From assembly GCA_903847155.1 (NCBI GenBank), contig CAINCU010000012.1, forward strand, positions 1-64,000: a stretch of 64,000 bases of DNA, written 5' to 3'. The position numbers and the translations under genes were made by a program. Positions 9,547 to 14,160 of the stretch are shown here, in pieces. Position 1 is the stretch's first letter; the number at the start of each line of letters is the position of its first letter. Source of the stretch: an uncultured Gallionellaceae bacterium (GTDB lineage: Bacteria; Pseudomonadota; Gammaproteobacteria; Burkholderiales; Gallionellaceae). The notes beneath the pieces are model-generated. The model was not told the DNA's origin, ran no database searches, and was given only the letters and a program-made list of their open reading frames with translations.

Positions 9547-9894
9547 ATGAAAAAGCAACAAGGTTTTACACTGATCGAACTGATCGTGGTGATCGTGATT
9601 CTGGGTATTTTGGCGGCGACTGCATTGCCGAAGTTTATCGATCTGAGCAGTGATGCAAGACTGGCTGCAGTTCAAGGTGTTGCTGGCGCCATCGCTTCAT
9701 CTGCTTCTATTCAGTACGGTGCAAGCCAGATAAGTTCAACTGCACACCCATACACTACTGCTAACGCATGTAGTGGCAATTACTTGCAGACTGGGCTTGA
9801 TACGACTAAATATAGCACTTCACTAGCTGTTAGCGCATGCAATGTTACGGCAGTTGGATACACAACTGTATCGCAAGTGGTTTCATTGCCTTAA
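9547..9894 (+). CDS. mshA: MSHA-type major pilin
   Basis: [55 protein letters not shown], short leader, RBS aggag. Confidence 0.85.
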
Positions 9895-9910
9895 GAATAG
9901 CTAATAAGCT

Positions 9911-10030
9911 AAAAGGGGTCAGGTTCGAATTGTTTTTCACTGACCTGCGTAGCAAGCAATAAAAGAAGTTGGTAACAAACAAGGGAGGCTTCGGCCTCCC
10001 TTGTTTTTTGTGCGGCACTGGAGCTTTTGC
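9911..10030 (+). repeat. Cassette repeat R1 (terminator hairpin plus promoter-like segment)
   Basis: AAAAGGGGTCAGGTTCGAATTGTTTTTCACTGACCTGCGTAGCAAGCAATAAAAGAAGTTGG...CAAGGGAGGCTTCGGCCTCCCTTGTTTTTTG, shared with R2-R5. Confidence 0.85.
9980..10009 (+). terminator. Rho-independent terminator-like hairpin (copy 1)
   Basis: CAAGGGAGGC-TTCG-GCCTCCCTTG TTTTTT. Confidence 0.85.
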
Positions 10031-10070
10031 TGCACTACGAGTCATTGGAGCATGGCGTAAGGAGATCAAA

Positions 10071-10304
10071 ATGAGCATTACTGTTGAGCAAATTGCTGAA
10101 GAGGCGTTGTCTTTACCGAGTGAGGCGCGCGCACTTTTGGCTGATCGTTTGGTTGAAAGCCTTGATCCGGCGGAAGATGGTTATGTGCGCCAACTGTGGG
10201 TGGCGGAAGCGCAAAGGCGTATTGAAGATGTGCGTAGCGGACGTGTGGCGACTGTTGCCGGTGCAGAGGCGTTTTCCCAAGTCAGAGCAACCATAGCGCG
10301 ATGA
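10071..10304 (+). CDS. Addiction-module antitoxin (TIGR02574-like), copy 1
   Basis: MSITVEQIAEEALSLPSEARALLADRLVESLDPAEDGYVRQLW...; overlaps the next ORF by ATGA. Confidence 0.8.
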   Translation: MSITVEQIAEEALSLPSEARALLADRLVESLDPAEDGYVRQLWVAEAQRRIEDVRSGRVATVAGAEAFSQVRATIAR

Positions 10305-10590
10305 ATTACCGCTTTCATCCTGAAGCCTTGCGCGAGTTTCAGGCAGCGACGATTTATTACGAGGAGCAGCAGCGCGCTTTGGGTGAGCGTTTTATATCAG
10401 CCGTTCAGACAGCGATTGATCACATCATCGCTTCGCCGTTGTCGGGACGCATTCTGGAAGAGGATGTGGCCGCTATCTAACCAAAGTTTTTCCATATGCG
10501 GTGCTGTACTCAGTGGAGGACGATTACATTTTGATCGTTGCCGTCATGCATTGCCATCGCGCGCCTGGGTATTGGCTGCATAGGGTTTAG
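10301..10590 (+). pseudogene. ParE/RelE-family toxin, copy 1, frameshifted
   Basis: Near-identical to the intact copy at 12030-12320 but lacks one C (GATGTG-GCCGCTATC vs GAAGTGCGCCGCTATC); stop at 10478-10480 leaves 59 aa. Confidence 0.85.
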
Positions 10591-10635
10591 CCTGTCATTT
10601 TGGGTTTTTGTTACACTAAAGCAATGGAGGGCATT

Positions 10636-10872
10636 ATGGAAAAAGCGCTATTTATTCGTGCAGAGTGGGATGAAGAAGCGGAAGTGTGGGTTGCCACGAG
10701 CGACGATGTTCCCGGTCTGGTTGCCGAAGCCGATACCGCAGAGGCTTTGTTAGCCAAATTGCGCACATTGATTCCCGAGTTATTGGATGCAAACGGCTAT
10801 CCCGATGCAGGCGATGTGCCGTTTGAGTTGTTTTCCCGGCGTTTCGATGTGACGCATCGGCAAGCGGTCTGA
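10636..10872 (+). CDS. HicB-like antitoxin (DUF1902), copy 1
   Basis: MEKALFIRAEWDEEAEVWVATSDDVPGLVAEADTAEALLAKLRTLIPELL; 78 aa; stop/start junction with the HicA-like ORF. Confidence 0.8.
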   Translation: MEKALFIRAEWDEEAEVWVATSDDVPGLVAEADTAEALLAKLRTLIPELLDANGYPDAGDVPFELFSRRFDVTHRQAV

Positions 10873-11078
10873 TGGAAAGTTTCACCGCTCAGTTAAAGGC
10901 TATTTTGCTCAAGGCCGGATGTCGCTTTGAGCGGCAAGGTAAAGGCGATCACGAAATTTGGTTCAGCCCGATTACTGCGGTGCACTTTCCTGTGGATAGC
11001 AAAATCAAATCAAGGACACATCGAATAATTCAAATTCCGTCATTCCGGCGAAGGCCGGAATCCAGCGGTTTTATTTAA
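10872..11078 (+). pseudogene. HicA-like toxin, copy 1, C-terminus replaced by repeat-derived residues
   Basis: GCRFERQGKGDHEIWFSPITAVHFPVDSKIKSR is HicA-like; the tail IPSFRRRPESSGF is a translation of repeat family 1. Confidence 0.8.
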
Positions 11079-11080
11079 AA
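11030..11080. repeat. Half copy of MITE-like repeat family 1
   Basis: ATTCAAATTCCGTCATTCCGGCGAAGGCCGGAATCCAGCGGTTTTATTTAAAA, no matching right arm before R2. Confidence 0.8.
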
Positions 11081-11085
11081 CGGGT

Positions 11086-11210
11086 CAAAGGGGTCAGGCT
11101 CGAATTGTTTTTCACTGACTCAGCGTAGCAAGCAATAAAAGAAGTTGGCAGCAAACAAGGGAGGCTTCGGCCTCCCTTGTTTTTTGTGTGGCGTTGGCGC
11201 ATTTTGTCAT
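11086..11210 (+). repeat. Cassette repeat R2
   Basis: AAAGGGGTCAGGCTCGAATTGTTTTTCACTGACTCAGCGTAGCAAGCAATAAAAGAAGTTGGCAGCAAACAAGGGAGGCTTCGGCCTCCC... Confidence 0.85.
11156..11185 (+). terminator. Terminator-like hairpin (copy 2)
   Basis: CAAGGGAGGC-TTCG-GCCTCCCTTGTTTTTT. Confidence 0.85.
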
Positions 11211-11248
11211 ACTGTGTACATTCAGCAACGTCTCAGAGGGGGATTCAC

Positions 11249-11638
11249 ATGGACATTACCTACGCAGATTTAAGGTTGGCCAACGATGCGCGCGATGATT
11301 TGGAAGAGATTGACGCAAGCGCGGTTGTGGACACTGGTGCAATGCACTTGTGCATCCCTGAGCACGTGGCGATCCAGTTACAGCTCAAAGCCAGATCGCA
11401 ACGTGAGGTGCAAACCGCTGATGGGAAGTCGCATATGGTGGACTATGTTTCGCCGGTCAGAATCTCGATGCTTGGACGCGAGTGCGTCACAGGGGCTCTG
11501 GTGATCGGCAATCAGGTTTTGCTGGGCGCGATTCCCATGGAAGATATGGATTTGATTGTTGAGCCGGCGAGATTGCGTGTAAGCGTAAATCCGTTAAGTC
11601 CGAATATTCCGCTATCGCTGGCTAAGGGAATCAAATAG
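11249..11638 (+). CDS. Clan AA (retropepsin-like) aspartic protease
   Basis: ASAVVDTGAMHLCIPEHVAIQL (DTGA active site) and VLLGAIPMEDMDLIV. Confidence 0.75.
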   Translation: MDITYADLRLANDARDDLEEIDASAVVDTGAMHLCIPEHVAIQLQLKARSQREVQTADGKSHMVDYVSPVRISMLGRECVTGALVIGNQVLLGAIPMEDMDLIVEPARLRVSVNPLSPNIPLSLAKGIK

Positions 11639-11639
11639 G

Positions 11640-11775
11640 GTTTAAGGGGAGGTGATTTATTTTTCACTGACCCTGCGTAGCAAGCAATAAAAGAAGTTGG
11701 CATCAAACAAGGGAGGCTTTGGCCTCCCTTGTTTTTTGTCTGGCGCACGTGCATTTTGTTACACTGCAAGCCATC
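11640..11775 (+). repeat. Cassette repeat R3
   Basis: TTTTTCACTGACCCTGCGTAGCAAGCAATAAAAGAAGTTGGCATCAAACAAGGGAGGCTTTGGCCTCCCTTGTTTTTTG...TGCATTTTGTTACACTG. Confidence 0.85.
11708..11737 (+). terminator. Terminator-like hairpin (copy 3)
   Basis: CAAGGGAGGC-TTTG-GCCTCCCTTGTTTTTT. Confidence 0.85.
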
Positions 11776-11799
11776 GGAACATGACGTGAGGAGTGCAAA

Positions 11800-12033
11800 A
11801 TGAACATCACTGTTGAACAAATCGCTGAAGAGGCGCTGGCTTTGCCAAGTGAGGCGCGCGCACTATTAGCGGATCGTTTGGTTGAAAGCCTTGATCCGGC
11901 GGAAGATGGCTATGTGCGCCAACTGTGGATGGTAGAAGCGCGTAGGCGCATCGAGGATGTGCGTAGCGGGCGTGTGGCGACTGTTGCCGGTGTGGAGGCG
12001 TTTGCCCAAGTCAGGGCAGCAATAGCGCGATGA
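11800..12033 (+). CDS. Addiction-module antitoxin (TIGR02574-like), copy 2
   Basis: Paralogue of 10071-10304, 8 differences over 77 aa by eye. Confidence 0.8.
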   Translation: MNITVEQIAEEALALPSEARALLADRLVESLDPAEDGYVRQLWMVEARRRIEDVRSGRVATVAGVEAFAQVRAAIAR

Positions 12034-12320
12034 ATTATCGCTTTCATCCTGAAGCCTTGAGCGAGTTTCAGGCGGCGACGATTTATTACGAGCAACGGCA
12101 GCGCGCTTTGGGCGAGCGTTTTATATCAGCAGTTCAGACTGCGATTGATCACATCATCGACTCGCCGTTGTCGGGGCGCGTTTTGGCAGAGGAAGTGCGC
12201 CGCTATCTAACCAAAGTTTTTCCCTATGCGGTGTTGTACACAGTAGAGGACGATTACATCCTGATCGTTGCCGTCATGCATTGTCATCGCGAGCCGGGAT
12301 ATTGGCTGAATAGGGTTTAG
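12030..12320 (+). CDS. ParE/RelE-family toxin, intact copy
   Basis: MNYRFHPEALSEFQAATIYYEQRQRALGERFISAVQTAIDHIIDSPLSGRVLAEEVRRYLTKVFPYAVLYTVEDDYILIVAVMHCHREPGYW. Confidence 0.85.
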   Translation: MNYRFHPEALSEFQAATIYYEQRQRALGERFISAVQTAIDHIIDSPLSGRVLAEEVRRYLTKVFPYAVLYTVEDDYILIVAVMHCHREPGYWLNRV

Positions 12321-12340
12321 TCCGCACGGGTTGGCAAAAA

Positions 12341-12370
12341 CAATGGAGGCTGCGGCCTCCCTTGTTTTTT
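12341..12370 (+). terminator. Terminator-like hairpin (copy 4; repeat R4, partial)
   Basis: CAATGGAGGC-TGCG-GCCTCCCTTGTTTTTT, followed by GGCGTTGGCGCATTTTGCTACACTGT. Confidence 0.8.
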
Positions 12371-12428
12371 GTGCGGCGTTGGCGCATTTTGCTACACTGT
12401 GCTATCGGTTAGGCTAATGGAGTTTGTT

Positions 12429-12665
12429 ATGGAAAAAGCGCTATTTATTCGTGCAGAGTGGGATGACGAGGCGGAAGTGTGGGTCGCCACAAGCGATGAT
12501 GTTCCGGGTCTGGTTGCCGAAGCGGATACCGCAGAGGCTTTGTTGGCCAAGTTGCGCACCTTGATCCCCGAGTTGCTGGATGCCAACGGTTATCCCGATG
12601 CGGGCGATGTGCCGTTTGAGTTGTTCTCGCGGCGTTTTGATGTGACGCATCGGCAAGCGGCCTGA
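12429..12665 (+). CDS. HicB-like antitoxin (DUF1902), copy 2
   Basis: Two amino-acid differences from copy 1 over 78 aa. Confidence 0.8.
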   Translation: MEKALFIRAEWDDEAEVWVATSDDVPGLVAEADTAEALLAKLRTLIPELLDANGYPDAGDVPFELFSRRFDVTHRQAA

Positions 12666-12871
12666 TGGAAAGTTTTACCGCGCAGCTAAAGGAAATTTTG
12701 CTCAAGGCTGGATGTCGCTTTGAACGGCAGGGTAAAGGCGATCACGAGATTTGGTTCAGCCCGATTACTGCGGTGCACTTTCCTGTGGATAGCAAAATCA
12801 AATCAAGGACACATCGAATAATTCAAATTCCGTCATTCCGGCGAAGGCCGGAATCCAGCGGTTTTATTTAA
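12665..12871 (+). pseudogene. HicA-like toxin, copy 2, C-terminus replaced by repeat-derived residues
   Basis: Same SRTHRIIQIPSFRRRPESSGFI tail as copy 1. Confidence 0.8.
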
Positions 12872-12950
12872 AATGCTGTTACGTCAGTGCATTGCACTGC
12901 ACCTATATTTTTTCCTAGACACCGGCCTTCGCCGGTGTGACGAATAATTA
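12823..12950. repeat. MITE-like palindromic repeat, family 1 (complete copy inside hicA)
   Basis: ATTCAAATTCCGTCATTCCGGCGAAGGCCGGAATCCAGC ... ACACCGGCCTTCGCCGGTGTGACG. Confidence 0.8.
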
Positions 12951-12978
12951 GAGATGCCAAAAAGAAGTTGGCATCAAA

Positions 12979-13008
12979 CAAGGGAGGCCGCAGCCTCCCT
13001 TGTTTTTT
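12979..13008 (+). terminator. Terminator-like hairpin (copy 5; repeat R5)
   Basis: CAAGGGAGGC-CGCA-GCCTCCCTTGTTTTTT. Confidence 0.85.
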
Positions 13009-13075
13009 GTCCGGCGCTGGTGCATTTTGTTACACTACAAACCCGTGTAGATTAGTAGGATGAAATGCTGCGAAC

Positions 13076-13156
13076 ATGCGTTTGACTGCCGAGCAAATCA
13101 AAGTAATCAAATTGGAGACCGAACATTATTTCGACGCTCATGCATATGACCATTGA
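13076..13156 (+). pseudogene. Truncated N-terminus of a nucleotidyltransferase (MntA-like)
   Basis: ATG-initiated MRLTAEQIKVIKLETEHYFDAHAYDH-stop; resembles the N-terminus of small nucleotidyltransferases before the lost GSR motif. Confidence 0.5.
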
Positions 13157-13158
13157 CC

Positions 13159-13626
13159 ATGCGTAATCCCCGCAAAATTATTGCTGTAACTCAACGCGGC
13201 TTCACGCTGGTAGAGTTGATTACCATCATCATTATTCTGGGCATCATCTCGGTGGTGGCGTTGCCGCGTTTCACCAGCAAGAGCTCGTTTGACAGCCGTG
13301 CCTTCAGTGATGAGGTGAAATCAACCTTGCGTTTGGCGCAAAAACTGGCCGTCGCGCAGCACCGCAATTCGTGCGTGAATGTGACCGCTGCGAATGTGGC
13401 CATCAAGGTGAGCAGCGCGGAACCGGGCGCTTGCGACACGGCGCTGCCAAGCTTGAGCGGCAGCGGAAATTACCTGATTAATGCGCCGGGCAGTTCCGTG
13501 CTCACTTTCTCTGCGGCCACGATCACTTTCGATTTAAAGGGCAGTCCGGGTGCGACGGCAATTACTTTGAAAGTGGATACCGAGCCGACAATCACGGTGG
13601 AAGCGGAGACGGGCTATGTGCATTAA
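13159..13626 (+). CDS. mshC: MSHA minor pilin / GspH-like pseudopilin
   Basis: QRGFTLVELITIIIILGIISVVALPRF prepilin motif; position between mshA-like and mshD-like genes. Confidence 0.75.
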   Translation: MRNPRKIIAVTQRGFTLVELITIIIILGIISVVALPRFTSKSSFDSRAFSDEVKSTLRLAQKLAVAQHRNSCVNVTAANVAIKVSSAEPGACDTALPSLSGSGNYLINAPGSSVLTFSAATITFDLKGSPGATAITLKVDTEPTITVEAETGYVH

Positions 13627-13659: not shown

Positions 13660-14160
13660 ATGAAAATTGCTGAACTCTTGCGCTCGCTATCGGAAGGTCA
13701 AGTCCAATATGTGCTCGTCGGTGGGTTGGCAGTTCAATTGCATGGATTCATGCGTTCAACTTTTGATGTTGATCTGGTACTGGCGATGAACGACGAAAAC
13801 CTCGTGCGATTTATCGAGGTGTCCAAACGATTCGGGCTGACTCCTTCGATCCCTGTTTCTATCGACTCGTTAAGGGATGCCGATCAGATCGAACAGTGGT
13901 ATCGCGAAAAAGGAATGCTGGCATTTGCCTTGAGAGAGCCGCAAACCGGCGGTGGCGTGGTGGATGTGCTGGTGCGTCCTGAAGTATCTTTTGAGCAACT
14001 CAAGCGCAATGCAGTGGCGGGGGCGTTGTTTGCGCAGCAGGTCTGGATCGCATCCATTGATGATTTGCTAACCATGAAGCGCGCCGCGAATCGTCCCAAA
14101 GATCATCTGGATATTGCTGCGCTGGAAAAGATCAAACGCGGGGAAGATCCCAATGGCTGA
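13660..14160 (+). CDS. Nucleotidyltransferase-fold protein (AbiEii/DUF6036-like)
   Basis: VQYVLVGGLAVQLHGFMRSTFDVDLVL (GG...DxD) and IASIDDLLTMKRAANRPKDHLDIAAL motifs. Confidence 0.7.
   Translation: MKIAELLRSLSEGQVQYVLVGGLAVQLHGFMRSTFDVDLVLAMNDENLVRFIEVSKRFGLTPSIPVSIDSLRDADQIEQWYREKGMLAFALREPQTGGGVVDVLVRPEVSFEQLKRNAVAGALFAQQVWIASIDDLLTMKRAANRPKDHLDIAALEKIKRGEDPNG

Follow-up and report, generated by a model that had tools for sequence, protein, structure and literature searches.

In Neisseria, minimal mobile elements are small gene cassettes that vary from strain to strain and occupy one chromosomal position, in the gap between two conserved genes; transformation, with the help of flanking homology, is the proposed route of their movement. 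On insertion at the 3' end of a tRNA gene, integrative elements rebuild this end and leave direct repeats. Chromosomal integrons are composed of small, co-oriented cassettes, rich in toxin-antitoxin (TA) genes, each followed by a hairpin-forming repeat and varying in content among strains and species, and the pdif (dif) modules of Acinetobacter, which include TA pairs, are small, have short repeats on either side and are shuffled among relatives (PMC6449649; PMC13141974). The locus described here, which resembles each of these systems in some respect, lies in a stretch of 64,000 nucleotides (nt) from an uncultured bacterium of the Gallionellaceae, a family of freshwater iron oxidisers (GenBank assembly GCA_903847155.1, contig CAINCU010000012.1, positions 1 to 64,000; hereafter the window), and is internal to a 127-kb contig. 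Between an mshA-like major pilin gene and an mshC-like minor pilin gene, five direct repeats (R1 to R5) split co-oriented cassettes, all the genes being on the + strand. This array looks like a means of collecting genes distinct from both integrons and transposons, in which TA cassettes dock behind mshA and, in relatives, behind a cytochrome-porin gene. With a probability of roughly 60%, we take it to be a recombinase-less, terminator-anchored gene-cassette platform, shuffled by homologous recombination between the repeats.

The differences from the described systems are several. Neisseria minimal mobile elements are single alternative inserts, whereas the terminator repeats are duplicated here, the cassettes are assembled into multi-cassette arrays and two unrelated anchors share cassette families. 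As at tRNA genes, the insert restores the 3' end of the gene that it follows and leaves direct repeats, but the unit is devoid of integrase and the repeat consists of the 3' untranslated region (UTR) and terminator of a protein gene. The pdif modules are bounded by XerC/XerD sites and mostly carried by plasmids, unlike the chromosomal 3'UTR-terminator copies of the present array. Unlike in chromosomal integrons, the genome from which the window comes (the source genome) has no IntI above cut-off, the repeats are terminator-like copies from a host gene without attC R boxes, each cassette has its own promoter-like box, and the anchor is a host-gene terminator instead of attI. No matching description was found in open-access full text, including texts on Gallionellaceae TA genes and on TA cassettes with terminators.

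Judged by its sequence, the array repeat is a copy of the native mshA terminator. It is about 65-115 bp long and comprises a hairpin with a stem of up to 13 pairs and a T tail, followed by a promoter-like TTTTGYTACACTG box or a close variant of it; about 45 nt located 5' of the hairpin are common to R1, R2 and R3, and R1 and R2 are 91% identical over 114 nt. In a scan for terminator-like structures, R2 and R3 are the two best matches and R4 is detected with a shorter stem. The hairpin covaries: among 13 distinct mshA- and cyc2-type hairpins, 95.9% of the cells are paired, with 12 two-sided changes against 3.4 after shuffling. The TTTTGYTACACTG box is not called as a sigma-70 promoter in a promoter scan, its label relying on position and conservation, and an Rfam search of the window gives no family at gathering score. 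A AAAGGGGTCAGGTTCGAATT-like motif is present directly 3' of mshA in the window (9915-9940) and in several congeners (loci L101, L106, L110 and L118); this 24-nt motif also occurs singly at other places (G000:C68:25793, G012, G016 and G019) and is perhaps an element of the REP (repetitive extragenic palindromic) type.

Within the source genome, the full repeat is confined to this array; the only other match is a 24-nt piece on a different contig. When the hairpin pattern is searched with two mismatches allowed in a genus set of 34 genomes (family Gallionellaceae), 33 matches are obtained, 32 of which are at mshA or cyc2 terminators, as placed by contig and neighbour positions (one of the 32, at a contig end, is inferred from the genes next to it); with the pattern reversed as a control, no match is obtained. 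A genome-wide terminator type is rejected, the hairpin being almost absent elsewhere in these genomes.

The mshA-mshC interval could be read in 27 genomes of this set, the source genome included; most of the genomes compared are draft or metagenome assemblies, and the congeners are different species. It is cassette-free in 24 of them, nearly always with a single hairpin after mshA. The three filled intervals (G011, G017 and the source genome) differ in content: G011 has R-hicB-hicA-R with an intact hicA, and G017 has R-antitoxin-parE-R with an intact parE. The source genome successively carries (i) an antitoxin gene, a broken parE, a hicB-like gene and a broken hicA, (ii) an aspartic protease gene, (iii) an antitoxin gene and an intact parE, and (iv) a hicB-like gene and a hicA broken by a miniature inverted-repeat transposable element (MITE). 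The parDE-like (PF09720 and PF05016) and HicAB-like (PF08972 and PF07927) pairs are of type II. Empty congeners have one hairpin behind mshA, G011 and G017 two each, and the source genome five. Copies of the anchor terminator bound the cassettes, and their number rises with that of the cassettes, typically by one more per cassette.

When the empty interval of G021 and the filled one of G017 are compared, both flanks are 92% identical and each end of the G017 parDE insert can be aligned with the lone terminator region of G021. The mshA-mshC site, with fixed conserved flanks and a different insert or none in relatives, corresponds to what defines a minimal mobile element. In a related groundwater Nitrosomonadales genome serving as outgroup (L272), mshA is followed by a terminator-promoter, a protease gene, a second terminator-promoter, a pair of the ribbon-helix-helix (RHH)/ParE type and mshC, and the second terminator-promoter is of the sequence type proper to L272 (93% over 71 nt).

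A second anchor gene encodes a protein with a signal peptide, one CXXCH motif and a weak porin match (PF13609), which we tentatively take to resemble the Cyc2 cytochrome-porin of iron oxidisers. Its site hosts similar TA cassettes, split by copies of that gene's own 3'UTR-terminator (AACAGGGGAGACTTCGGTCTCCCCTGTT), in G010, G033 and G009. In G010, four terminator copies surround small open reading frames (ORFs), hicA-hicB, DUF4160-DUF2442 and an RHH-like antitoxin gene, the array stopping at the contig end; the three copies beyond that of cyc2 itself match it over 53, 81 and 38 nt, with identities of 98%, 89% and 100%, respectively. Three copies surround DUF5397-VapD-like, DUF2442 and coiled-coil genes in G033, where the repeats match the cyc2 3'UTR of G006 over 70, 78 and 35 nt (identities of 90%, 86% and 97%, respectively), and two copies surround DUF433-DUF5615 in G009. 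Cassettes are also found directly behind the Cyc2-like gene in G001 (parDE), G031 (antitoxin and protease) and G006 (hicBA). At both sites, the repeats match the 3'UTR of their anchor beyond the hairpin, and they differ between the mshA and cyc2 anchors.

Although the cassettes vary from species to species, they belong to families that are shared by these two unrelated anchors. Within the genus, DNA relatives of parDE are found only at mshA (twice in G000, the source genome, and once in G017) and at cyc2 (G001 and G031); in an order-wide DNA search, the cassette is found in G344 only, a member of the same family, again at cyc2, the other matches being a 146-nt antitoxin stretch (G320), one mshA terminator-promoter (G285) and short stretches of about hairpin size. 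HicB was searched at the protein level instead of hicBA at the DNA level, where matches were swamped by the MITE. It has five copies in the 34 genomes: three at mshA, one directly behind cyc2 and one about 2.1 kb behind it.

Similarity between genomes is far higher in the cassettes than in the backbone. The first parDE copy of the window is 93.8% identical at the nt level to that of G017, for 78% in the gene upstream of mshA, and the hicBA units are 83-85% identical to that of G011, for 66% in the same upstream gene; this contrast argues that the cassettes move horizontally, and would fit a spread by natural transformation and homologous recombination. Among the proteases compared, that of the source genome is nearest to the one in the mshA-mshC array of L272 (86% nt).

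The first of the alternatives to be weighed is a site-specific system acting in trans, in which IntI, XerCD or an unknown enzyme, tyrosine recombinase or other, encoded elsewhere would use the palindromic terminator as an att site, making the locus an orphan integron- or pdif-like array. IntI (TIGR02249) is indeed above cut-off in 15 of the 34 genus genomes, including G017 and G011, the duplicated att-like repeats flanking each cassette are the expected trace of site-specific insertion, and R5 is inverted relative to R4. However, the source genome has no IntI above cut-off (best score 83 bits for a cut-off of 265 bits, from Xer-like partial matches), and neither have G021, G031, G010, G006 and G009; no integrase gene is seen near the mshA or cyc2 arrays. 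No foldable attC (RYYYAAC...GTTRRRY) is detected in the arrays of the window, G017, G011, G010, G033 and G009 by a script that detects attC-type sites in three of four genus IntI loci, and the attC identity of the repeats is rejected on this ground. For a 28-bp dif-like XerC/XerD site, searched with one dif consensus, the best match has 11 mismatches out of 28, as in shuffled sequences, and dif identity is likewise rejected. As the length and extent of the repeat also vary among copies, unlike a fixed core site, we regard this possibility as unlikely. A transposon finds no support either: the mshA-mshC interval has no transposase, the MITE in hicA is its only inverted-repeat element besides the terminators, and direct repeats of 65-115 bp are unlike the terminal inverted repeats and short target duplication of a transposon or insertion sequence.

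Ordinary tandem duplication, in which a single ancestral [parDE-hicBA-protease] block would have been inserted once and partly duplicated within the lineage, could account for the order parDE, hicBA, protease, parDE, hicBA. It could also account for the MITE, a multicopy element of the genus with CGTCATTCCGGCGAAGGCCGGAATCCAG ends, which breaks both copies of hicA at an identical position and with an identical sequence (12805-12960, and 11030-11078 for the copy of which only the left part is present), so that at least the hicA-MITE segments are of recent shared ancestry. However, the first parDE copy is nearer to G017 than to the second (89.6% nt), which leads us to reject simple tandem duplication; moreover, the UTR part of R4 is of the G017/G021 type, G011 and G017 each have just one of the units, and the terminator copies between different genes, like the cyc2 arrays with other genes, would be left unexplained. 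We therefore hold this explanation to be improbable. Around the MITE (10992-11051), identity between the hicBA copies is 100%, and it is 85-93% over most of the rest, a pattern as would be expected from gene conversion. Because of the parDE, hicBA and protease relationships, the UTR type of R4 and this hicBA mosaicism, the units appear to have been acquired more than once, and then recombined.

It is very unlikely that the site is a mere passive safe harbour, where TA genes would land anywhere by illegitimate recombination and survive mainly behind strong terminators, the copies of which would have arisen independently by convergence or gene conversion: T-tailed hairpins of such a type are common intrinsic terminators, the solitary protease genes mentioned below would fit, and flanks can be duplicated without R, but the repeats match the anchor 3'UTR beyond the hairpin and differ between anchors, the hairpin is nearly restricted to them, and all detected parDE and HicB relatives are at just two sites. 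The duplicated flanks are those of locus L279 (3748-4635), where the start of thyA is present twice (137 nt, 93%) with the same aspartic protease gene in between, a hint that some more general route can bring in inserts whose flanks are duplicated.

Under the platform that we favour, the mobile unit would be small and self-contained, with a promoter and a TA pair or an orphan gene, and would lie between direct repeats copied from the 3'UTR and intrinsic terminator of the anchor, together, at mshA, with the promoter-like box of the downstream gene. Gain, loss and reshuffling could proceed by RecA-type homologous recombination between the repeats, either (a) by exchange of [cassette-terminator] blocks with incoming DNA of relatives through natural transformation, or (b) by way of a circle that is excised between two repeats and then undergoes Campbell-type integration. 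Each insertion would rebuild a terminator on both sides, so that the anchor gene, presumed to be highly expressed, would stay insulated and the insertion would be nearly neutral; addictive TA units could for this reason persist while their toxins slowly decay.

Several observations weigh against this platform. Some cyc2 cassettes (in G001, G031 and intervals in G012) have no recognisable terminator copy behind them. The aspartic protease gene is also found singly at many unrelated loci of the family, once behind a porin terminator (L271), and this gene at least has some other means of moving. Furthermore, the filled and empty pair G017/G021 consists of different species and not of strains of one species, and repeats of 65-115 bp, diverged as they are (65-91%), would be short for efficient RecA recombination between species.

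An earlier note on the window had proposed a cassette platform distinct from integrons, with the mshA terminator as its anchor. Our results support this proposal and extend it to the second, Cyc2-like anchor; neither of the two outcomes that the note named as refuting is seen, since the interval varies in content between species, no fixed, tandemly duplicated set being found at the 27 genus loci, and the repeats are locus-specific and not ordinary genome-wide terminators, according to the genome search and to the pattern scan of the 34 genomes. Its term "integron-like" finds no support in any mechanistic sense, as the attC scan found no such site in the arrays; the repeats are, as it said, unlike attC sites. 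Growth by recombination between the repeats, which it had suggested as possible, would fit the mosaics.

The features of the array are listed in Table 1. Repeat-separated, co-oriented cassettes are confirmed by the repeat search and by Pfam, with which the cassette and pilin gene families were called (the second hicB copy, at 12429, by homology), and the hairpin-to-hairpin spacings of 1176, 552, 633 and 638 bp are exactly those announced. The earlier note placed the MITE in the hicA of the fourth unit, where it is present in full, and missed its left part in the first hicA. It counted the first unit as one cassette; a sixth repeat has probably been lost inside it, between the broken parE and hicB, where its TTTTGTTACACTA piece is still present (10606-10618). 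Of the four toxin genes of the array, three are broken (10301-10590, 10872-11078 and 12665-12871), and all four antitoxin genes are open.

Table 1. Features of the mshA-mshC array (positions in the window) and loci of the second site
Feature	Position	Strand	Basis
mshA-like major pilin gene (anchor)	9547..9894	+	Pfam N_methyl 1.8e-11; congener orthologues
R1: mshA 3'UTR, terminator hairpin 9977-10006, promoter-like TTTTGCTGCACTA	9915..10038	+	Matching single-copy region in G001 (L104), 82% to R2 over 125 nt
Antitoxin (Unstab_antitox), parDE unit 1	10071..10304	+	PF09720 1.3e-13
parE pseudogene, frameshift, stop at 10480	10301..10590	+	PF05016 partial; intact relative in G017, parDE unit 93.8% nt
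Probable leftover of lost repeat, TTTTGTTACACTA at 10606-10618, without hairpin	10600..10620	+	Repeat-family match
hicB-like antitoxin (DUF1902), copy 1	10636..10872	+	PF08972 8.8e-25
hicA broken by MITE (left part only), copy 1	10872..11078	+	PF07927 partial; element multicopy in genus
R2: mshA 3'UTR copy, hairpin 11153-11182, promoter-like box	11090..11214	+	91% to R1
Clan AA (retropepsin-like) aspartic protease cassette	11249..11638	+	TIGR03698 (NCBIfam) 5.7e-18; PF13650; relatives at cyc2 site of G031 and mshA-mshC of L272
R3, hairpin 11705-11734	11654..11766	+	
Antitoxin, parDE unit 2	11800..12033	+	parDE 89.6% nt to unit 1
Intact parE, unit 2	12030..12320	+	PF05016 1.8e-11
R4, hairpin 12338-12367; UTR part GTTGGCAAAAACAATGG of G017/G021 type, unlike other copies	12330..12399	+	Alignment
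hicB-like antitoxin, copy 2	12429..12665	+	99% protein identity to G011 hicB
hicA broken by full MITE, copy 2	12665..12960	+	PF07927 partial; MITE multicopy
R5, hairpin 12976-13005, loop inverted relative to R4, promoter-like box	12960..13037	+	
N-terminal remnant of MntA-like nucleotidyltransferase, mshC leader	13077..13158	+	tblastn to intact G017 gene, 56.5% over 23 aa; likewise in congeners
mshC-like minor pilin gene	13159..13626	+	PF07963 (N_methyl); genus orthologues
DUF6036 nucleotidyltransferase, unevenly distributed insert after mshC	13660..14160	+	PF19502 1.2e-8
cyc2-site hotspot loci	L132 1164-3394; L134 1-1760; L206 215-1003; L209; L211; L137		

The nucleotidyltransferase remnant that precedes mshC had been counted as a further, separate cassette, a claim that has to be withdrawn. 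In many cassette-free congeners, the hairpin is followed by a TTTTGYTACACTGCAA box and, in several of them, by a nucleotidyltransferase N-terminus running into mshC; in G017, the nucleotidyltransferase gene is intact and followed by a short remnant ORF and then by mshC. This argues that the remnant is an ancient leader sequence of mshC rather than a recent cassette. The G017 protein matches NF047752 (MntA) at 4.9e-4, below the cut-off of that family. The pilin of G001, G031 and G011 has the MntA-like N-terminus fused to it in frame, perhaps as a recycled prepilin leader. The DUF6036 nucleotidyltransferase gene, which separates mshC from the next pilin gene, is 84% identical (nt) to its counterpart in G011 and 78% to that in G021; G017 and G031 show just a 39-nt match.

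We tentatively suggest, at somewhat less than even odds, that genes could be captured in this way without a dedicated recombinase or site, a host 3'UTR-terminator acting as the dock, a new terminator copy sealing each TA cassette, and cassettes passing between two anchors and between species. If true, this would add a simple, possibly widespread route to cassette arrays, as every strong terminator might come to serve as a docking repeat, and would help explain the gathering of TA genes at certain chromosomal spots without integron or transposon. In Gallionellaceae, it would link TA turnover with the pilus locus and with a gene probably involved in iron oxidation.

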